From Clostridia bacterium (GTDB lineage Bacteria; Bacillota; Clostridia; Christensenellales; Aristaeellaceae): a stretch of 33,602 nt of DNA. How positions within the stretch are numbered: the stretch's first letter is position 1; each line of letters begins with the position of its first letter. The translations under genes were made by a program, and so were the position numbers. The notes beneath the pieces were generated by a model. The model was not told where the DNA came from and did not search any database. It saw only the letters and a program-made list of their open reading frames with translations. This document shows positions 7,825-21,176 of the stretch, in pieces. The stretch is taken from assembly GCA_017550745.1 (NCBI GenBank), contig JAFZOG010000129.1:1-33602 (forward strand). The letters run 5' to 3'.

Positions 7825-8163
7825 CAAATTTTTAACCATTTGTTTGAGTAAGATGATTCCGGTTCCGTTTTCCCCGCCTTTTTTCCCCTCTCAGTCCTGT
7901 TCAGGACTGGCGGGGAAAGGCCGCAGGAAAAGCGGAAGGCGTCTTTTCGGGGACATGCAGGAAGGAACGGCGGAATGCTGTGGCTGAAAAGCAGGCAGGG
8001 CCGTCGCCAAGATACCGGGGCCGCTGATGGGTTTTGGATCATGGGGGACCATTGACAGCCGATCGGCGAACCGGTTCGTCTAACGTTAGGAGAAGCGATA
8101 AAACTTACAAAAAAACGAAGTAAATGAACAAGGCTGTTGCTGTTCAGAAAATGGGGCGAGTTT
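7825..8163 (+). other. Long structured 5' leader of the polysaccharide operon
   Basis: This gene-free stretch holds strong secondary structure. A hairpin pairs CAGTCCTG (7892-7899) with CAGGACTG (7902-7909). It can be enclosed by pairing of the TTTCCCCGCC region (about 7870-7879) with GGCGGGGAAA (7909-7918). Farther on, three palindromes stand side by side: GCCGATCGGC (8058-8067), CGAACCGGTTCG (8067-8078) and CTAACGTTAG (8080-8089). Such leaders before capsule genes often carry a riboswitch or an antitermination element (LoaP-type or EAR-type in Bacillota). I do not recognise a named class, so the role is inference. Short open frames here are not convincing genes. Confidence 0.5.
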
Positions 8164-9339
8164 ATGAAAAATAAATCAGACAGAAAACTGAACATCGCAA
8201 TGTTTGGCCACAAACGGATCCCATCCCGGGAAGGCGGAATAGAAGTGGTCGTGATGGAGCTGTCCACGCGCATGGCCGCGCTGGGCCACAGCGTCACCTG
8301 CTTCAACCGCTCCGGGCATCATGTGAGCGGCCAGGAATATGATGAAGAAAGAGTGTCCGAATACAAGGGCGTGAAGCTGAAAAACGTGCTGACGCTGGAC
8401 AGAACAGGGCTGGCAGCTATCACCGCCTCTGTTTCCGCGGCAATCAGGACCGCGTTTGGGAAATTCGATGTGGTGCATATCCACGCGGAAGGCCCGGCCT
8501 TTATGTGCTGGCTGCCCAAAATGCTGGGAAAACACGTCATTGTGACCATCCACGGGCTGGACTGGGCCAGGGCCAAGTGGGGAAAGCTCGCTTCCTGGTA
8601 CATCAAAAGCGGGGAAAAGAACGCGGTCAAGTACGCGGATCAGATCATCGTGCTGAGCAAGGGCGTGCAGGATTATTTCCGGGATACCTATCATCGGGAC
8701 ACTGTTTTTATTCCAAACGGCGTAAATAAACCGGAAATCAAAAAAGCCTGTGAAATCGAAAAGCGCTGGGGGCTTCAAAAAGACGGGTACGTCCTGTTTT
8801 TAGGCCGGCTCGTGCCCGAAAAGGGCGTTCATTACTTGGTTGAAGCATGGAAGAATATCCGGACGGACAAAAAACTGGTGATCGTGGGGGGAAGCTCCGA
8901 TACCCAGGACTATATGGACCGGCTGAAGTCGCTGGCCGGGCATGATATGATCTTTACAGGCTTTCAGCAGGGCCAGGTGCTGGAGGAGATGTACAGCAAC
9001 GCGTATGTTTATGTGCTGCCCAGCGACCTGGAGGGCATGCCCTTAAGCCTTCTGGAGGCAATGAGCTACGGCAACTGCTGCCTGGTATCCAGCATAGAGG
9101 AGTGTACCCAGGTCACGGAAGATCACGCGGTGGTTTTTGAAAAAGGAAATATCCAGGATCTGAGAAATAAACTGCAGGAACTGCTCGACCATCCGCAGGA
9201 AGTGAAAAAGTACCAGGACGCGGCTTCAGCTTATATCTGCGATAAATACAGCTGGGATGACGTGGTGAGCAGAACGGTCAGCCTGTATCAGGATAGTATG
9301 GCCAGGCTCGACAGGCATGAAAATAAACCGGCAATGTAA
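8164..9339 (+). CDS. Glycosyltransferase family 4
   Basis: A 391-residue GT-B-fold glycosyltransferase, expected to add one sugar from a nucleotide-sugar donor to the lipid-linked repeat unit at the inner membrane face. It begins with the family-typical GHKRIPSREGGIEVVV loop. The C-terminal half has FLGRLVPEKGVHYLVEA and the donor-binding E-x7-E motif at E290 and E298 (EGMPLSLLE). The N-terminal loop resembles rhamnosyltransferase-type GT4 proteins, but donor and acceptor cannot be assigned. The ATG at 8164 is chosen over the TTG at 8137 because a purine-rich GGGGCGAG precedes it and the conserved region starts shortly after. It opens the polysaccharide locus behind a long leader. Confidence 0.92.
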   Translation: MKNKSDRKLNIAMFGHKRIPSREGGIEVVVMELSTRMAALGHSVTCFNRSGHHVSGQEYDEERVSEYKGVKLKNVLTLDRTGLAAITASVSAAIRTAFGKFDVVHIHAEGPAFMCWLPKMLGKHVIVTIHGLDWARAKWGKLASWYIKSGEKNAVKYADQIIVLSKGVQDYFRDTYHRDTVFIPNGVNKPEIKKACEIEKRWGLQKDGYVLFLGRLVPEKGVHYLVEAWKNIRTDKKLVIVGGSSDTQDYMDRLKSLAGHDMIFTGFQQGQVLEEMYSNAYVYVLPSDLEGMPLSLLEAMSYGNCCLVSSIEECTQVTEDHAVVFEKGNIQDLRNKLQELLDHPQEVKKYQDAASAYICDKYSWDDVVSRTVSLYQDSMARLDRHENKPAM

Positions 9340-9440
9340 TGTATGGATCCGTAAACCTGGTGAAAGGCGTGGCTCCGGCAGACATCCATCGAATAAACCG
9401 TAAGGATGTGCCGAAAAAAATTTAAAGAAAGTGTGTCCGC

Positions 9441-10451: not shown

Positions 10452-11813
10452 ATGCAGCTTGGATTACTGAAAAAGAAGAACCCGAACGTATCTTCAAAGA
10501 GCGTACTGGAAAAAGGATGGAACTGTTTACGCGAAACATTTGAAGAGTATTGGAAAAGAAGGTTTATCGTTTTTGCTTTGTTTATCCTCGTTTTCGCTGC
10601 GTTTTGCTGTTATCATTTTTCGAAAAGCCTGCTCACTGCCACGACGATTGTATCGCTGGATTATGAAGAAGCTTCAAAAGGCCTGACGCCAAGCCATACG
10701 CGATTCAATATTTTTGAGATTCAAAGCACCGAGGTGATGGAGCGGCTGATTAAATACGCCGGGCTGGAGGGTGTGATTACGCCCGATGAGCTGAGCGAAT
10801 GCATCCGGGTAAAGGCAACGCATAACAAAAATGTCAGCGGCAAAGTGAATTTTATCAGTACTTCCTATATCATTACTTTTACACATTCCGACTTAATAAA
10901 GGAACGATCGGTTGAAACCATGCTGTCGCTTCTGTGCAAATCTTACCGGGAATTTTTTGTGGAGAACTATGGCATCAACCATTCTATCCTGTCTTTTGAT
11001 ATCAATGACCTGAAATTCAACGATGAATATTTGATGGCTGTAGACCTGCTGGAGCTTAAATGCAACCAATTGGAGAAATATGTGCAGCTTCGCAAGCGGG
11101 AAAACAAAAACTATCAGGATCCGGATACCGGCATCACTTTTACCGCGTTGGAACAGCGGGCGAAGAACTTTTATACCTATGACCTGACAAGACTGCGCTC
11201 TTACATCATTGAATCCGGCATCGCAAACGACAAAGCAAGTCTGAACGCCATACTGGATTATAAGATCCGTATGGATCGATTGGTCTATGATAAACTGTTA
11301 GCGGCATATGAAGAAGACAATAAAGGGATAAAAATGTACGATACCGCCATGAGCGCCATCGTGATGATTCCCACGGAAGACAGTTCGCGGAAATACTATA
11401 TGTCCAGGACGAAAACCGGGATGGATAACATGGCGCTTCACGCGGATGGACAGCTCTATGGCGCTTCAGAAAAAATGCAGGCAATTTCTACAAACTCCTA
11501 CCTGATCAAAAAAATGGATTCGGTTTCTCCGCTTGCGGAACAGGTCAATAAAGCCGACGCCATGATCCGGCAGATTGAAGCGTCTCTGGAAGAACTTGCG
11601 TCAGATATCAGGAAGACAGACAAAGCCTATACCAGTTACAAAGCCCGCAACTATCTGAGCTTTAAAAGCAGTTACGAGCGCTTTATGGACCGTATCGATA
11701 TCATTAGCTCCGGTTTTGGATCGGCAGTTCTCCTTTTCTTATCATTCATTGCCGTTTTCCTGCACAAGTTCGTTATAAGGAAGAAAAAGGTAAAGAAGTA
11801 TGAAAAAATTTAG
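10452..11813 (+). CDS. Wzz-like polysaccharide co-polymerase without cytoplasmic domain
   Basis: A 453-residue protein with one membrane segment near each end (about 38-56 and 423-440) and a large, helical, coiled-coil-rich region between them. This is the layout of polysaccharide co-polymerases that set chain length. Early in the outer domain it has a TP...N-x-x-EI-x-S-x-x-V pattern (near residues 72-93) shared with the next gene, so the two look like paralogues. The C-terminus is only a short basic tail, with no kinase or signalling domain. The ATG at 10452 has AAGGTGAG just upstream; an ATG at 10434 is the alternative. It overlaps the next gene by 14 bases. The family call rests on topology and weak similarity. 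Confidence 0.75.
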   Translation: MQLGLLKKKNPNVSSKSVLEKGWNCLRETFEEYWKRRFIVFALFILVFAAFCCYHFSKSLLTATTIVSLDYEEASKGLTPSHTRFNIFEIQSTEVMERLIKYAGLEGVITPDELSECIRVKATHNKNVSGKVNFISTSYIITFTHSDLIKERSVETMLSLLCKSYREFFVENYGINHSILSFDINDLKFNDEYLMAVDLLELKCNQLEKYVQLRKRENKNYQDPDTGITFTALEQRAKNFYTYDLTRLRSYIIESGIANDKASLNAILDYKIRMDRLVYDKLLAAYEEDNKGIKMYDTAMSAIVMIPTEDSSRKYYMSRTKTGMDNMALHADGQLYGASEKMQAISTNSYLIKKMDSVSPLAEQVNKADAMIRQIEASLEELASDIRKTDKAYTSYKARNYLSFKSSYERFMDRIDIISSGFGSAVLLFLSFIAVFLHKFVIRKKKVKKYEKI

Positions 11814-13608
11814 TATTCTTCGATACCTGAAGCAATTCAGTCTGCTGATATTACTTTTGTCTGTCGCCGGCGCATACGGAATTTATCGCTACGGCAAAAA
11901 TCAGCAGCGGTATACTGCTTCCGTGGTGATCCAGTACACAAATAAAGGGGCCAACGATGGCTTTACACCGGATGGCAGCGTTTTGAACGTGGAAGAAATC
12001 TATTCTTCCACAGTAGTTGACGCTGCGCTGAAAGACCTGGGGTATGAAACCAATATCGATTCCATCCGTTCCAACTGCTATGTGGAAGAGATCATTCCGG
12101 AGACGAAGCAAAAACTGATAGATGTATTGCTGGATAAAGGCGAAGAAGTTTCCTATACTCCGAATACATACCGGGTGTTTTTTGTGGGCGGAAGCAGTAC
12201 AAGTGAAAATTACGCCTGGAATGTTCTGGACGCGATTATCAAAAACTACTGCGAATATTATACAGAAAAGTATGTTGAACAGCGGCTTCAGAACAATGGC
12301 GCCACTGCCCTGGAAACGGATGAATATGATTTTATCGAAAGCGCGCAGGTACTTGAGGATGCCGTATCGCAGATGCTGGACTATTTGTTGGAGAAAAGAA
12401 CATCATGGCCCTATTTTCGATCAATCGATACGGGTTATACCTATGGCGATTTAACAAATATCTATACTTTCTTATACAATTATGAGATTCCAAACCTGTA
12501 CTCGACCATCCTGGATAATGCGGAAACAAGCGACATTGAAGTGCTCGTAAACCGACTGAAGAAAGAATGCGAGGATCTGGAGCTGACGATCGAAAATCAG
12601 GAGGAGCAGGCTGATTATTTAAAAAGCCTGATCGATAATTACAGTGAGCGCAACAAAGATATGATGGATTACCATTATCATAATTCAAGCAACCAGGAAA
12701 GCGGCACAGATTACATTCTGAAGCTGGTGGAGGAGGATCGTGAGAGTAATGATAAAGAAACGACGTATGACTCGCTCATACAGGAATATGTAAACCTGCG
12801 CATCAGTATCCGAAACAGAGAAATCGAAATGAAGCACAACCAGTACATGCAGTCCGTGTTTGACACGGCGATGGACGTTGCAGGGAGAAAAACATACAGT
12901 TCGGAAGAAATCCTGGAAAAGATTGATCATTGCCTGAATCTGGTGAATACATACTATCAGGATGTGGAGCAAACCGGGCGGGAGCTGAACCGTTTCCTGA
13001 GCGCTGACTATCTGAAGATGGTCAGCAGTATCACGGTGAGCACCGCGGTGAATATCAAGCTGTATATCGTGATTGCCGTTGTGCTGTTCACTTCGGTCGG
13101 CGTCGTTGGCGCTGTGCTGCTGGGCAGGTTGATCGACTTTATCGATTATTTCCTGTATGTTGACAAAACGGTGGGTATTCCGAACCGTGCCAGATGTGAT
13201 ATTTTTATTGAAGAAAACTCGAAAAAGCTGCTTTCGGAAAACTATTCCTGCCTCGCGCTGAAGATGACATCGTTGAACGATATTTCCAAAAATTTCGGAC
13301 GTGCGACCGGCGACGCGGTGCTCAAGGACTTTGGCCTGATCCTCAAGAGCTTCGGCGATCTGTACGGTTTTGTGGGATATAACGGCAGCGGCAGCTTTAT
13401 GATGTTCTTCCCGGAGTGTTCCGCGACGAAGCTGAATGTTATGATTGAGGCGATTGGCCGCCAGGTGGAGGAATACAATAAACTGAATCCGGGCCACGAG
13501 ATTCGTTATACTTATGGCAAATCTGAAACTGACGAGGACAGCACCTTTGATATCCGTGGTTTGCTCCGCCTTGCCTTGCAGAGGATGAATATGGCAAAGC
13601 CGGCCTGA
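11800..13608 (+). CDS. Wzz-like co-polymerase fused to a degenerate GGDEF domain
   Basis: A 602-residue membrane protein. TM1 (about 9-28) is followed by an outer domain (30-418) with RYTASVVIQYTN as in Wzz proteins and long coiled coils. TM2 spans 421-444, and a cytoplasmic domain runs from about 454 to 597. This last part reads as GGDEF: VGIPNR (458-463) for the usual TGLPNR, then a FGRATGDAVL stretch for YGH..GD.VL. The signature is GSGSF (529-533) in place of GGDEF. The two acidic residues before the loop are K and T, the guanine-binding Asn is Ser, and the RxxD inhibitory site is absent. A diguanylate cyclase activity is therefore very unlikely; a sensing or docking role is inferred. It starts inside the upstream co-polymerase gene. 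Confidence 0.82.
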   Translation: MKKFSILRYLKQFSLLILLLSVAGAYGIYRYGKNQQRYTASVVIQYTNKGANDGFTPDGSVLNVEEIYSSTVVDAALKDLGYETNIDSIRSNCYVEEIIPETKQKLIDVLLDKGEEVSYTPNTYRVFFVGGSSTSENYAWNVLDAIIKNYCEYYTEKYVEQRLQNNGATALETDEYDFIESAQVLEDAVSQMLDYLLEKRTSWPYFRSIDTGYTYGDLTNIYTFLYNYEIPNLYSTILDNAETSDIEVLVNRLKKECEDLELTIENQEEQADYLKSLIDNYSERNKDMMDYHYHNSSNQESGTDYILKLVEEDRESNDKETTYDSLIQEYVNLRISIRNREIEMKHNQYMQSVFDTAMDVAGRKTYSSEEILEKIDHCLNLVNTYYQDVEQTGRELNRFLSADYLKMVSSITVSTAVNIKLYIVIAVVLFTSVGVVGAVLLGRLIDFIDYFLYVDKTVGIPNRARCDIFIEENSKKLLSENYSCLALKMTSLNDISKNFGRATGDAVLKDFGLILKSFGDLYGFVGYNGSGSFMMFFPECSATKLNVMIEAIGRQVEEYNKLNPGHEIRYTYGKSETDEDSTFDIRGLLRLALQRMNMAKPA

Positions 13609-14716: not shown

Positions 14717-16078
14717 GTGCCATATAAAAGAGTGCTTCCATATGGAGTAGAAGATGCAGAACCGCAAAGGCCCAAAAAAGTACCGCCGCGATTTGTCACT
14801 TTTATAGCAATTTTATGCACCGTTATTGCGGGTCTGGGTGATTGGGGCGTACTCAATAGAATGCTGAAAGGGCTGCCCAAAGCGGTGGCGCTGGGGACGA
14901 TTGCATGCGCGGTTTTGAATTATCTTGTGGACGCAGATTTTGTCAATATCAAAAAGGCGCTCAGTTATCTGCCGCTGTATATGCTCCTGATTGCTGTCTA
15001 TACGTCCATCAGCATGTATATTTGGCTGATGGATTTGTCGAAAGTATCCTCTATCAGCGCAGGCGCGCAAAAAATCCTTTTTCAGGCGATTACCATCATA
15101 TATGCGATTTGCATGTGTTATCTGTTTGAGGACCGGGCGATCAATTTTCTGTTTTTGGGGATGGTTATCACAAACGGAAGCATTATGCTCCTGGAGATGC
15201 CGAAATACGGAATTGCCAACAGTATATTATCCGTCATTACCTGTGTCATCACTTTCGGCGGAGCGTCCGGGTTTGTCCGCGCAATGGAAATCCATGACAT
15301 CACCTTTCTCTTTGGCCAATTTTTAATCTATTATATGATGTTCGCCCCAAGAAAAACGCCAACGGAAAGAAAAAGACGGTATATCTGTATTGGCTTTTGC
15401 ATTTTTTTCATGCTGGTTGGATTAAAGCGCAGCACCTTGCCGGCTGTAGCAATGATGTGTATCTATGTAAAAGTCCTCCGAATGTTTAAAAAGCCAGAGC
15501 CTCTTATGCTGGCGACAGGAATCGGCCTGTTCCTGTTCTCATATGTCTATGTTTATCTGGCCCGTACGGGGATCATGGTTGACTTCTTGGAATCGATGGG
15601 CATCGAAATGCTGGGCCGCGATAAGCTGTGGACGCTGCCCAATGATTATTATGAGTTTTCGCCTTTCTGGAAAGGGCTGGGCTTTGAAGGCGTAGACGAC
15701 CTGATTAAAATGTTTTATCAAGCGGGGCTCATCACCTCCACCTTTCCGCTGCATAATGATTTTTTGAGAATCTTTATTGAACTTGGCGCAATCGGCTTTA
15801 CCCTTTGGGGCGGAATTCATTATATTCTGTATCCGCTGTACTGGATGAAACGCTATGATACTGAAACCTGTATGCTGTACATGGCTCTCGTGTGCTATAT
15901 GACGGTTACGTATCTGACAGATAACACCGCTTTCTATTTTTGGTGTAGCATCGGCCTGAGAACGATTCCAATGAGCTACAGCTACCGTATCTATAAAGCG
16001 GAAAAGATCAGGCGATGGAAAGCGCCAACGGTCGAAACTGCCGCCGATTTAATTTGGGATATTGAAACAGGAGGGTAA
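14717..16078 (+). CDS. O-antigen polymerase/ligase-like membrane protein (Wzy type)
   Basis: A 453-residue polytopic membrane protein with about ten to twelve hydrophobic segments. Near residue 346 it has HNDFLRIFIELGAIGF, the loop pattern typical of the Wzy/WaaL superfamily, just before the last membrane segments. In a locus with a flippase and co-polymerases the natural role is the polymerase that joins repeat units outside the membrane. It starts at a GTG (14717) seven bases after GGGAGGA; no better in-frame ATG lies nearby. It is A+T-rich like its upstream neighbours. Wzy proteins are poorly conserved, so ligase activity cannot be excluded. Confidence 0.8.
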   Translation: MPYKRVLPYGVEDAEPQRPKKVPPRFVTFIAILCTVIAGLGDWGVLNRMLKGLPKAVALGTIACAVLNYLVDADFVNIKKALSYLPLYMLLIAVYTSISMYIWLMDLSKVSSISAGAQKILFQAITIIYAICMCYLFEDRAINFLFLGMVITNGSIMLLEMPKYGIANSILSVITCVITFGGASGFVRAMEIHDITFLFGQFLIYYMMFAPRKTPTERKRRYICIGFCIFFMLVGLKRSTLPAVAMMCIYVKVLRMFKKPEPLMLATGIGLFLFSYVYVYLARTGIMVDFLESMGIEMLGRDKLWTLPNDYYEFSPFWKGLGFEGVDDLIKMFYQAGLITSTFPLHNDFLRIFIELGAIGFTLWGGIHYILYPLYWMKRYDTETCMLYMALVCYMTVTYLTDNTAFYFWCSIGLRTIPMSYSYRIYKAEKIRRWKAPTVETAADLIWDIETGG

Positions 16079-16084
16079 TCTAAT

Positions 16085-17332
16085 ATGGGAAATCAACTAA
16101 AGGGGTTGGTGGGCTCTGGCCCATCAAAATTAAAAGGAAAACAGAAAATAGAGCACCAGTTGAAAAAGCTGCCGCTGTACCTGAAAAACGTATTTCTCCT
16201 GGCGGCGCTCTGGCCTGTCGCCACGGTGCTGAGAAAAACGAATAAAACATACCGCGGCCTTTGGCTGGTCTCGGAGCGCGGCATAGACGCCCGGGACAAC
16301 GGGTACTGGTTTTTCCGTTACCTGCGGGAAAAGCAGCCGCAGGTGAACACCTGCTTTGTGATCGACAAATCCAGCCCGGACTATGAGAAAGTCGCGCGGC
16401 TCGGCAATACCGTGGCATACCGTTCGCTCCGCCATTACCTCATGTATCTGGCGGCGGATCAACTGATCAGCACCCACGTGCAGCCCGCTTCTCCCGATCT
16501 GATGACCTATTATCACCTGCGCCAAATCGGCATCCATCCACGCGGCAAACAGGTTTTCCTGCAGCATGGGATCATCATGAATGAGATGAAATGGATGCGG
16601 TATCCCCAATTGAAGCTTGACTTTTTTGCCAGCGGCGGGAAAATGGAATATGATTATCTGGCGGGCGAATTCGGTTTTCCGGAAGGGGTCGTTCAGTATA
16701 CAGGCCTGTGCCGCTATGACAACCTGATGCGGGGCAATCATCCCTCCAATGAGATCCTGGTGATGCCCACCTGGCGCAGCTCGAATTATCCCATGGGTGA
16801 ACAGTTTTATGAAACGCCTTTTTATCAGTATTATCAGTCTTTGCTGAATCATCCACGCCTGCTCAAACTGCTGGAAGAACGTGATCTGAAGCTGCTCTTT
16901 TATCCGCATATCGAACTGCAAAAAGAATTGGACAAATTTAAATCACCGTCTGAACGGATCATCCTGGCAAGCTGGCGTGAATACGATGTGCAGACCCTTA
17001 TGATGCGCTGCAATATGATGATTACAGATTATTCCAGCGTGCATTTCGATGTGGGCTATATGGAAAAGCCAATAATTTATTACCAGTTTGATTATGAAGA
17101 CTTCCGGAAGTTCAGTTATCAGGAAGGCTATTTTTCCTGTGAGAAGCACGGTTTCGGCCCTGTGGTCAAAACAGAAGAAGCGTTGATGGAAGCCCTGATC
17201 GCATGCGCCCGGAATGATTTCCGGATGGAGAAAAAGTACCATGACCGGTTGGACGCCTTCTTCCAGATGCGGGACGAGAAAAACTGCGAGCGGACGTACC
17301 AGGCTTTGTGTAGGCTGATGAAAAAACAATAA
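16085..17332 (+). CDS. CDP-glycerol glycerophosphotransferase family (TagB/TagF-like)
   Basis: A 415-residue member of the glycerophosphotransferase family that moves a polyol phosphate (glycerol- or ribitol-phosphate) from a CDP-activated donor, as in teichoic acid synthesis. Visible motifs are SERGIDARDNGYWFFRYL near the start of the domain, QHG with catalytic-type H161, and TDYSSVHFDVGYMEKP starting at T314. The early part is basic and may bind the membrane surface. The ATG at 16085 follows AGGAGGG. The gene implies that the exported polymer carries phosphodiester-linked polyol groups. No CDP-polyol synthase (TagD/TarI) is in the window, so the donor must be made elsewhere. Confidence 0.9.
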   Translation: MGNQLKGLVGSGPSKLKGKQKIEHQLKKLPLYLKNVFLLAALWPVATVLRKTNKTYRGLWLVSERGIDARDNGYWFFRYLREKQPQVNTCFVIDKSSPDYEKVARLGNTVAYRSLRHYLMYLAADQLISTHVQPASPDLMTYYHLRQIGIHPRGKQVFLQHGIIMNEMKWMRYPQLKLDFFASGGKMEYDYLAGEFGFPEGVVQYTGLCRYDNLMRGNHPSNEILVMPTWRSSNYPMGEQFYETPFYQYYQSLLNHPRLLKLLEERDLKLLFYPHIELQKELDKFKSPSERIILASWREYDVQTLMMRCNMMITDYSSVHFDVGYMEKPIIYYQFDYEDFRKFSYQEGYFSCEKHGFGPVVKTEEALMEALIACARNDFRMEKKYHDRLDAFFQMRDEKNCERTYQALCRLMKKQ

Positions 17333-19584: not shown

Positions 19585-19640
19585 TGGATTTCGCGCCGCT
19601 CAAACGGCGTGAGATTTGATCAGGAAAGGAACGGTTGTTC

Positions 19641-21176
19641 ATGAAAATTGAACGCACGAAAAACGCTGCGCGGAATATCGCCTTCGGCAGCATGCTGAAA
19701 ATGCTCAACATGGTGATTCCTTTCATCATGCGATCGATCCTGCTGCATTATCTGGGCGTACAATACCTGGGGCTGAGCGGCCTTTTCAGATCGCTCCTTT
19801 CATTTTTGAATTTAGCTGAGCTTGGCGTGGGCAGCGCGATGGTGTTCAGCATGTACAAGCCCATCGCCGAGGACAATACAAAAGAGATTTGCGCGCTGAT
19901 GCGCCTGTACCGCACGTTCTACCGGATCATCGGCCTGTTCATTGCCGTGGTAGGTCTGGCAATCACGCCATTCCTGCGCAACCTGATCAGCGGCGACCTG
20001 CCGGCAGACATGAACCTGTATATCCTGTATTTCATCAATCTGGGATACACGGTGCTCTCCTATTGGCTGTTTGCCTATAAGAGCAGTCTGCTCAACGCGC
20101 ACCAGCGCACAGACGTAATCAGCAAAGTCAGCCTGTGCATTCATTTGGTGGAATATGCATTGAAGCTCCTGTCCCTGATTATTTTCAGAAATTATTACAT
20201 TTACCTTGTCATCCAGCTGCTCTCTCAGGTCGCGATCAATTTGGCAACCGCAGTGCAGGTAACGAAGATGTATCCGGACTATTTGCCCAAGGGCCGCCTG
20301 CCCAGGGAAAAAGTGATGGATATCGTACATCGGGTGCGGGATCTGTTCACCGCCAAATTCTCCTACGTCATTTTTAATTCCGCAGACACGCTGGTTATTT
20401 CCGCTTTTATGGGCCTGGCTCCTTTGGCGCTCTATCAGAACTACTACTTTGTCATTGCTTCGCTGAACACCTTTTTGAACATTATCATCCAGGCCTGCAT
20501 CGCCGGCGTGGGCAACAGCCTGGTTACGGAAAGCGAAGAAAAGAATATTAAAGACCTGACCAAGTTCACCATATTGTTCGGCTGGGTCATGGGCATCAGC
20601 AGCGCCATGCTGCTATGCATGTATCAGCCATTTATGCAAATCTGGATGGGAAAGGAAAACTTGCTCATCTTCAGTTATGTGATATGCTTCGTCATCTATT
20701 ACTACACGGAGGGAATGAACAGGGTCATCAACATGTTCAAGGATGCGGCGGGCATCTGGCGCAAGGATCGGTGGCGCCCGCTGACGGCGGCGCTGGTGAA
20801 TCTGGCCCTCAACCTGGCTACTGTGCAATGGCTGGGCCTGTACGGCGTGCTGCTGTCCTCCGTGATCTCCATGGTGGCGGTGCAGATTCCCTGGCTGTTC
20901 CATAACCTGTTTCAGGAAGTGTTTCCGCATAAATACCTGTGGCAGTATGTGCGCCTTTTCTGCGGCCTTGCGGTGTTGACGCTCCTGTCCTGTGTCGGCT
21001 CGATACTCGCGTGTTCCGCAATCCATCTGAGTGTATGGCCTTCCCTGATCATCAATGCCTGTTTCAGCTTTATCATTTCCAGTGCCCTTTTCTTCGCGGT
21101 GTATGGCAGAAACAAATTGTTCCGGGAAAGCATTGCGCAAATCAAGCGTAATCTTATAAAGAGGAAGGCAGCCTAA
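19641..21176 (+). CDS. Wzx-type polysaccharide flippase (MOP superfamily)
   Basis: A 511-residue polytopic protein with about twelve to fourteen membrane segments. It starts with ARNIAFGSMLKMLNMVIPF and continues with YLGLSGLFRSLLSFLNLAELGVGSA as in polysaccharide transporters of the MOP superfamily. It should move the lipid-linked repeat unit across the membrane for polymerisation by the Wzy-like protein upstream. The ATG at 19641 is chosen; the TTG at 19635 is only two codons earlier and less likely. AAAGGA lies upstream. Two basic residues end the protein just before a terminator-like structure. Confidence 0.92.
   Translation: MKIERTKNAARNIAFGSMLKMLNMVIPFIMRSILLHYLGVQYLGLSGLFRSLLSFLNLAELGVGSAMVFSMYKPIAEDNTKEICALMRLYRTFYRIIGLFIAVVGLAITPFLRNLISGDLPADMNLYILYFINLGYTVLSYWLFAYKSSLLNAHQRTDVISKVSLCIHLVEYALKLLSLIIFRNYYIYLVIQLLSQVAINLATAVQVTKMYPDYLPKGRLPREKVMDIVHRVRDLFTAKFSYVIFNSADTLVISAFMGLAPLALYQNYYFVIASLNTFLNIIIQACIAGVGNSLVTESEEKNIKDLTKFTILFGWVMGISSAMLLCMYQPFMQIWMGKENLLIFSYVICFVIYYYTEGMNRVINMFKDAAGIWRKDRWRPLTAALVNLALNLATVQWLGLYGVLLSSVISMVAVQIPWLFHNLFQEVFPHKYLWQYVRLFCGLAVLTLLSCVGSILACSAIHLSVWPSLIINACFSFIISSALFFAVYGRNKLFRESIAQIKRNLIKRKAA

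Follow-up and report, generated by a model that had tools for sequence, protein, structure and literature searches.

A Wzz-like co-polymerase of Clostridia with a degenerate GGDEF domain at its C-terminus

The window analysed here covers positions 1 to 33,602 of contig JAFZOG010000129.1 of a Clostridia bacterium (assembly GCA_017550745.1; genome 88.8% complete, 7.45% contamination). It encodes a protein, Wzz2, in which a Wzz-like polysaccharide co-polymerase is joined at its C-terminus to a GGDEF domain that has lost its catalytic residues. The fusion is conserved, a sister branch ends in an EAL domain instead, cyclic di-GMP (c-di-GMP) genes lie near sister fusions, and no tyrosine kinase was found in the fusion neighbourhoods scanned. 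The reading that we favour, and to which we give about an even chance, is that Wzz2 and the Wzz-like protein encoded just upstream, Wzz1, are the two-Wzz pair of a Wzy-type pathway with no kinase found beside it, Wzz2 having taken its cytoplasmic control domain from c-di-GMP signalling. Regulation, a ligand and coupling through the second transmembrane segment (TM2) are inferred.

A reading of the window without database searches (the sequence-only reading) had described the open reading frame (ORF) of Wzz2, two membrane segments and a dead GGDEF domain, and its coordinates, residue numbers and landmarks proved exact. By hydropathy, the two membrane segments enclose an extracytoplasmic domain, as is expected of a Wzz co-polymerase. 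The Pfam GGDEF model scored 46 bits on the C-terminal part (cut-off 23.8 bits; E = 6.5e-12), which excludes a chance match, and a 12-row profile of the domain matched GGDEF structures in the PDB with E-values down to 5.1e-15. The domain retains VGIPNR (458-463) and FGRATGDAVL, its signature reads GSGSF (529-533), and it has K488 and T490 at the metal-acid positions, S496 at that of the guanine Asn, and D520 and G523 at the I-site (inhibitory site) positions. In the numbering of PleD, used below for D327, N335 and D344, D505 corresponds to D344.

The residues of 36 distinct Wzz-GGDEF fusions were tabulated against those of nine intact reference GGDEF domains. The second signature acid is present in all nine references and in none of the fusions, and the first signature acid position is Asp in 3/36. 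An Asn stands directly before the signature in every fusion and in no reference, Arg occupies the His position in 33 of the 36, and D344 and N335 are kept in 33 and 23, respectively. An active cyclase was rejected on the basis of GSGSF, K488, T490 and the absence of the second signature acid in 36/36. The fusions differ by branch: in clade B (13 rows of the tree described below) N335 and D344 are kept in 13/13 and D327 in 12/13, and in the window's clade all 12 members have Lys or Arg at D327, Ser or Thr at N335, and Asp at D344. The mean entropy of 12 columns of the former nucleotide pocket was 0.92 bits, compared with 1.80 bits for the domain, and 2 of 20000 random column sets were as low, a figure that is no true probability since the rows are related, some of the residues also being structural. 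The ratio of non-synonymous to synonymous substitution rates (dN/dS) of the GGDEF part was 0.02-0.20 in the nine pairs, out of 11, for which a value was obtained, with synonymous sites near saturation in several pairs. On these sequence comparisons, selection has both maintained and remodelled the domain, with a somewhat looser hold on it than on the Wzz part. A related dead GGDEF, with the signature RNGGNKF, also occurs in free-standing membrane proteins (L013 and L014, in neighbourhoods L045 and L046, and the matches L012 and L015). L013 and L014 have 252 and 254 amino acids (aa), two transmembrane segments were seen in both proteins read, and the stretches covered contain no Wzz pair.

Carriers of the Wzz2-GGDEF fusion are gut and rumen bacteria. 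Matches that begin at the N-terminus and extend into the GGDEF domain were found in 9 of 100 relatives (in G070 to residue 545 only), in 9 of 396 genomes of the order and in 20 of 391 genomes of the class, these samples overlapping and the window's genome being counted in each. In a sample of 398 genomes across the phylum, matches at 1e-40 were limited to the window and G602, which belongs to the same class; the class Clostridia was assigned to the genomes that we number with G from their named relatives. Monoglobus pectinilyticus has a fusion of 880 residues that is annotated only as 'GGDEF domain-containing protein'. An artefact of assembly or frameshift was rejected, as the 36 distinct fusions lie on many contigs, including those of the single-contig genomes G430 and G589 and the Monoglobus record. 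The joining of a dead GGDEF domain to chain-length control, which the sequence-only reading had proposed from one protein, is a conserved arrangement. The core of the protein of L094 (NZ_OY725743.1), recorded as a plasmid of M. pectinilyticus, recurs on a 2.76 Mb contig of G589, and NZ_OY725743.1 may therefore be chromosomal.

The 167 Wzz-like ORFs collected were reduced to 85 rows by removing copies with a shared 130-residue core, and a tree of the Wzz part was built by a quick method, with Shimodaira-Hasegawa-like approximate likelihood ratio test (SH-aLRT) support and long branches flagged. One Wzz2 branch takes up 59 of the 85 rows and comprises 11 EAL-tailed rows, 11 bare rows and a GGDEF branch of 37, 36 with the domain and one (L035) that has lost it. 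The EAL-tailed rows group together with a support of 99. The EAL-tailed forms are 731-764 residues long, the Pfam EAL model scored 108-200 bits in all four scanned, and nine EAL sites were checked in the 11 proteins: L124 keeps all nine, L126 is without one, and the other nine proteins are without three. The tail labels (GGDEF, EAL, bare) need three changes across the whole tree and, with the GGDEF and EAL rows each clustering, the two tails would most simply represent two separate fusions onto the same end of the same protein.

That the N-terminal part is a Wzz-type co-polymerase, as the sequence-only reading had it, is supported by homology. Wzz2 of the window does not itself match Pfam Wzz (PF02706), but its bare homologue L137 does so above cut-off (26.8 versus 25.5 bits), and matches at E<=0.1 were obtained for 5 of 7 bare homologues, the best of them at 2.3e-6. 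The profile of the 85-row family aligned to four CpsC proteins from bacterial tyrosine kinase (BY-kinase) loci of related genomes (hhalign 86.6%, E = 4.5e-6). Smaller family alignments gave weaker values against CpsC (56.1% and 24.6%), Wzz1 alone had neither a CpsC link (hhalign 0.9%) nor a Pfam Wzz match, and the bare Wzz profile had only a weak match in the PDB, to the chain length determinant protein 6rbg (E = 0.17). On the Pfam matches of the bare homologues and the CpsC alignment, the relationship of the Wzz half is judged to be real but remote.

Wzz1 is related to the fusion family by profile comparison (98.4%, E = 5.9e-15), its gene overlaps that of Wzz2 by 14 bases, and a Wzz1 homologue lies directly upstream of the fusion wherever the relatives' stretch extends that far. 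Two irregular Wzz1 genes were seen, both given in reverse-complement coordinates. L144 (6361-8766) encodes an 801 aa Wzz1-type protein with, by eye, an apparent family 2 glycosyltransferase N-terminus in frame, and may be a fusion. In L037 of G046, Wzz1 and Wzy are each split into two reading frames (8026-9356 and 11227-12587), either through mutation or through an error of assembly.

A profile built on four BY-kinases had no match in the window, and among the 81 loci scanned it matched only L089, which is not a fusion locus. The kinase domain or adjoining kinase gene that marks polysaccharide co-polymerases of types PCP-2a and PCP-2b was not found at the Wzz2 locus. A BY-kinase nearby was rejected, none having been found in the stretches scanned (mostly ~10 kb on each side, sometimes much less), where ORFs were picked without overlap, a procedure that hid the Wzz genes of L035, L038, L134 and L135. 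L089 (199-6393; G000:C76, ~60198-66392) is another place in the window's genome and encodes a MotA/ExbB-like protein fused to EAL (533 aa), an adjoining SpaA-fold protein (579 aa), and a protein of 947 aa that combines two transmembrane segments and a BY-kinase-like ATPase domain with a long tail of acidic repeats.

Genes of c-di-GMP metabolism were sought around the fusions, in neighbourhoods of mostly ~10 kb on each side (some shorter, such as L034 with 3.7 kb and L038 with 5.5 kb in all; the fusion genome G769 was left out). In clade B, a separate EAL gene (452-460 residues where complete) lies ~6 kb downstream in 12 of the 13 neighbourhoods, and the thirteenth (G493), which stops at a contig edge, has a GGDEF gene ~10 kb upstream. 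A GGDEF protein of 765-803 residues is encoded on the same contig, ~8-11 kb from the fusion, in G070, G494, G618, G493, G502 and G553. Its RMGGDEF signature was intact in the six such proteins read (L172-L175, L177 and L178), and the one scanned had a sub-cut-off Cache match. For G070, G494 and G618, all other GGDEF and EAL genes found are one GGDEF and two EAL genes within ~11 kb of the fusion; G502 and G553 each have one further GGDEF gene elsewhere, and G493, G737, G576 and G772 have several on other contigs. The c-di-GMP-I riboswitch (RF01051) occurs in 4 of the 13 genomes, as a single copy directly before an EAL gene, on the fusion's contig and 10-13 kb away in G070, G553 and G502 and on another contig in G737. 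It was not found in the other nine among the 150 candidates scored per genome (150 being scored in 11 of the 13), which is not proof of absence. For PilZ, 0/12 of these genomes gave a match, and the window's own genome gave one.

A separate GGDEF, EAL or HD-GYP-like gene was present in 13/13 clade B, 4/10 other GGDEF-fusion, 10/11 EAL-fusion and 5/11 bare Wzz2 neighbourhoods and was not found in that of L035, counts for which flank lengths differ and background rates were measured only in the genomes of the genome-wide GGDEF/EAL scans. HD-GYP genes, searched in neighbourhoods only, gave HD-GYP-like proteins in the Monoglobus cluster (REC-HD-GYP) and in L133, L134, L145, L146 and L156. In the controls, distant bare Wzz pairs (L048-L050 and L090-L093), 0/7 neighbourhoods had a GGDEF, EAL or HD-GYP-like match. 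An eighth control, L095 (Pseudobutyrivibrio plasmid pNP95), is a distant bare Wzz with an annotated diguanylate cyclase and an EAL protein directly upstream. All nine degenerate-EAL fusion clusters (L127-L135) encode, ~5-6 kb downstream, an HD-GYP-like protein of 195-220 residues without the GYP motif.

These neighbouring enzymes bear on a different explanation, in which the dead GGDEF binds no ligand and is a docking module, paired with an active cyclase through the latter's GGDEF or bound to a phosphodiesterase, holding local enzyme activity at the co-polymerase. GGDEF domains act as dimers, and membrane proteins with intact RMGGDEF as well as EAL proteins do lie near the clade B fusions, themselves devoid of an I-site. 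However, such enzymes were not found near any of the 12 window-branch fusions, and the conserved new residues sit in the former nucleotide pocket; we consider this explanation unlikely.

Several observations weigh against the favoured reading, that of a control domain recruited from c-di-GMP signalling. Bare Wzz2 forms exist without any such tail domain, and L035 (5989-7380, 463 aa), nested in the GGDEF branch, has kept its Wzz part and lost its GGDEF. The RxxD of the I-site is absent from all 36 fusions (some of the references lack it too), on which ground an ordinary I-site receptor of the PelD/PssE type was rejected. The window's branch has lost more nucleotide-contact residues than clade B, and none of its 12 neighbourhoods, two of them very short, has a GGDEF, EAL or HD-GYP-like gene near the fusion. 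Within that branch, no GGDEF gene was found in G114 (~90% complete) besides the fusion, the single other GGDEF of G046 (~79% complete) is degenerate (MGMNEF), and no EAL was found in G023 or G046. Given these absences, c-di-GMP may no longer be the input in the window's branch; the window's own genome has 48 GGDEF matches. Over-cut-off BY-kinases are encoded elsewhere in 7 of the 9 fusion genomes examined (G000 and G068 being the exceptions) and might work in trans, and for this reason replacement of the kinase is put forward only as a proposal. Finally, the GGDEF part evolves somewhat faster than its Wzz partner: of the 7 pairs with a dN/dS for both parts, 6 show the higher value in the GGDEF part.

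The sequence-only reading had suggested that kinase control may be replaced by a nucleotide- or partner-sensing dead cyclase domain. The failure to find a kinase in the neighbourhoods scanned, the relatives with an EAL tail and the many related clusters with GGDEF, EAL or HD-GYP-like genes agree with that suggestion, which is held back by the missing I-site, the lack of c-di-GMP genes near the window-branch fusions, and the BY-kinases elsewhere in most of the genomes examined. Another explanation is that the altered pocket, with Arg at the His position and Asn before the signature, binds GTP or another mononucleotide, or an alarmone, and reports the metabolic state. The pocket columns vary less than the domain does on average, D344 and to a lesser extent N335 are retained, and the domain persists in G114 and G046, where no intact cyclase was found. 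Such a sensor is nonetheless rather improbable, as the whole of the window's branch has a basic residue at the first metal-acid position and Ser or Thr at the guanine Asn, and the sister branches point to c-di-GMP.

The domain might instead be a structural remnant that only packs or oligomerizes the co-polymerase ring and senses nothing. Degenerate catalytic residues, the tolerated loss in L035 together with the many bare relatives, and the higher dN/dS of the domain would all be expected of a remnant, but the purifying selection on the domain, the new residues fixed in its pocket and the second, separate fusion of EAL at the same end would not, and we regard this explanation as very doubtful.

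For the favoured reading, a mechanism can be proposed in which Wzz1 and Wzz2 would be the two co-polymerases of a Wzy-type polysaccharide pathway and the Wzz2 tail would derive from c-di-GMP signalling, as a dead GGDEF here, an EAL in the sister branch and nothing in others. Placed directly after TM2, the domain would pass a cytoplasmic signal through the TM2 helix to the outer Wzz part, and a short conserved stretch following TM2 (G442, R443, D446, Y450, Y453 and D455) would relay a change in the domain to TM2 and the outer part. Chain growth would then be switched or tuned, the role of the tyrosine kinase in PCP-2 systems. The signal in clade B is most likely c-di-GMP or contact with the neighbouring synthase and phosphodiesterase enzymes, whereas in the window's branch it could be c-di-GMP read differently, another nucleotide or a protein partner. 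More tentatively, and with a somewhat less than even chance, these proteins may form a third kind of PCP-2 in Clostridia, a Wzy-pathway co-polymerase whose own tail, as a receptor of the c-di-GMP system (dead GGDEF or EAL), replaces the tyrosine kinase. In some lineages, such as that of G070, a private c-di-GMP circuit would consist of one synthase, two phosphodiesterases and one riboswitch, encoded together around the polysaccharide genes, and this co-polymerase would be its sole obvious protein effector.

The gene order around the fusions is largely kept (metallophosphoesterase, Wzz1, Wzz2-GGDEF, Wzy-type polymerase, glycosyltransferases; the side taken by the phosphoesterase varies), and a homologue of the Wzy-type polymerase is near the fusion in most neighbourhoods. 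The metallophosphoesterase of the window is YaeI-like, and its homologues adjoin the Wzz pair at many fusion loci. The putative flippase has no Pfam family, its best match being at chance level (E = 0.12).

Table 1. Features of the Wzz2 locus in the window
Feature	Position	Strand	Basis
Wzz2, Wzz-like co-polymerase with C-terminal degenerate GGDEF, 602 aa	11800..13608	+	ORF, Pfam, 36 distinct fusions
Wzz2 first membrane segment, residues 10-28	11827..11883	+	Hydropathy
Wzz2 outer (extracytoplasmic) Wzz-type domain, residues 29-422	11884..13065	+	Homology to bare Pfam-Wzz members; CpsC by profile
Wzz2 second membrane segment, residues 423-441	13066..13122	+	Hydropathy
Wzz2 degenerate GGDEF domain, residues 453-601	13156..13602	+	Pfam PF00990, 46 bits; residue table
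N528 and GSGSF (529-533) replacing GG[DE]EF	13381..13398	+	N in 36/36 fusions
Wzz1, partner Wzz-like protein without GGDEF, 459 aa	10434..11813	+	Profile comparison with the fusion family
Calcineurin-like metallophosphoesterase, N-terminal hydrophobic segment	9441..10358	+	Pfam Metallophos, 5.3e-16
Wzy/O-antigen-ligase-type polymerase	14717..16078	+	Pfam Wzy_C, 3.1e-08
CDP-glycerol glycerophosphotransferase-like cluster protein	16085..17332	+	Pfam Glyphos_transf, 7.4e-42
Family 4 glycosyltransferase of the cluster	8137..9339	+	Pfam Glycos_transf_1, 3.3e-29
Putative flippase	19635..21176	+	Inferred from many hydrophobic segments in homologues

Domains of the c-di-GMP type are found on secretion components in BcsE and in Alg44, a protein of the alginate machinery with a PilZ domain; unlike Wzz2, these belong to synthase-dependent systems and have different host proteins. 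A 2025 review, in the passages available, ties Wzy-pathway co-polymerases to a tyrosine kinase, either intrinsic or separate, and describes c-di-GMP control through PilZ for synthase-dependent systems (PMC12220298). The PCP-2b and PCP-2a proteins CpsC-CpsD and Wzc with their BY-kinase, whose roles are described there (PMC12220298), share with Wzz2 two membrane segments, an outer Wzz domain and a Wzy-type cluster. In contrast to them, Wzz2 has no kinase domain, no adjoining kinase gene was found, and the C-terminus of the family carries GGDEF or EAL. The outer domain of Wzz2 alone has ~390 residues, whereas the compared CpsC proteins are 239-308 residues entire. In PelD of Pseudomonas and Bacillus cereus, as in Wzz2, a degenerate GGDEF is linked to polysaccharide production, but according to the sections of the source available PelD belongs to the Pel system, has a GAF-GGDEF make-up and binds c-di-GMP via an intact RxxD (PMC7112168); Wzz2 is without RxxD, and a Wzz is what carries its GGDEF. 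PssE of Listeria monocytogenes is likewise a dead GGDEF protein from an exopolysaccharide operon and, according to the portions available, the sole predicted c-di-GMP receptor of that genome, but it is an I-site receptor of the pssA-E operon and not a co-polymerase (PMC4125290). PelD and PssE show that a dead GGDEF can serve as a c-di-GMP receptor in polysaccharide production, but since both use the RxxD that the fusions lack, at least as described in those portions, their binding mode cannot simply be carried over to Wzz2.

In the titles and abstract openings of the open-licence literature searched, there was no description of a GGDEF-Wzz fusion, its EAL twin or the local c-di-GMP genes. Each of the pieces is already known, and what appears to be new is their combination: a Wzy-pathway co-polymerase fused to a dead GGDEF, an EAL twin and, in one branch, local c-di-GMP genes. 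With its small genomes and few other c-di-GMP parts, clade B makes the hypothesis testable. If it is true, the GGDEF- and EAL-tailed Wzz proteins would place second-messenger control directly on chain-length control.

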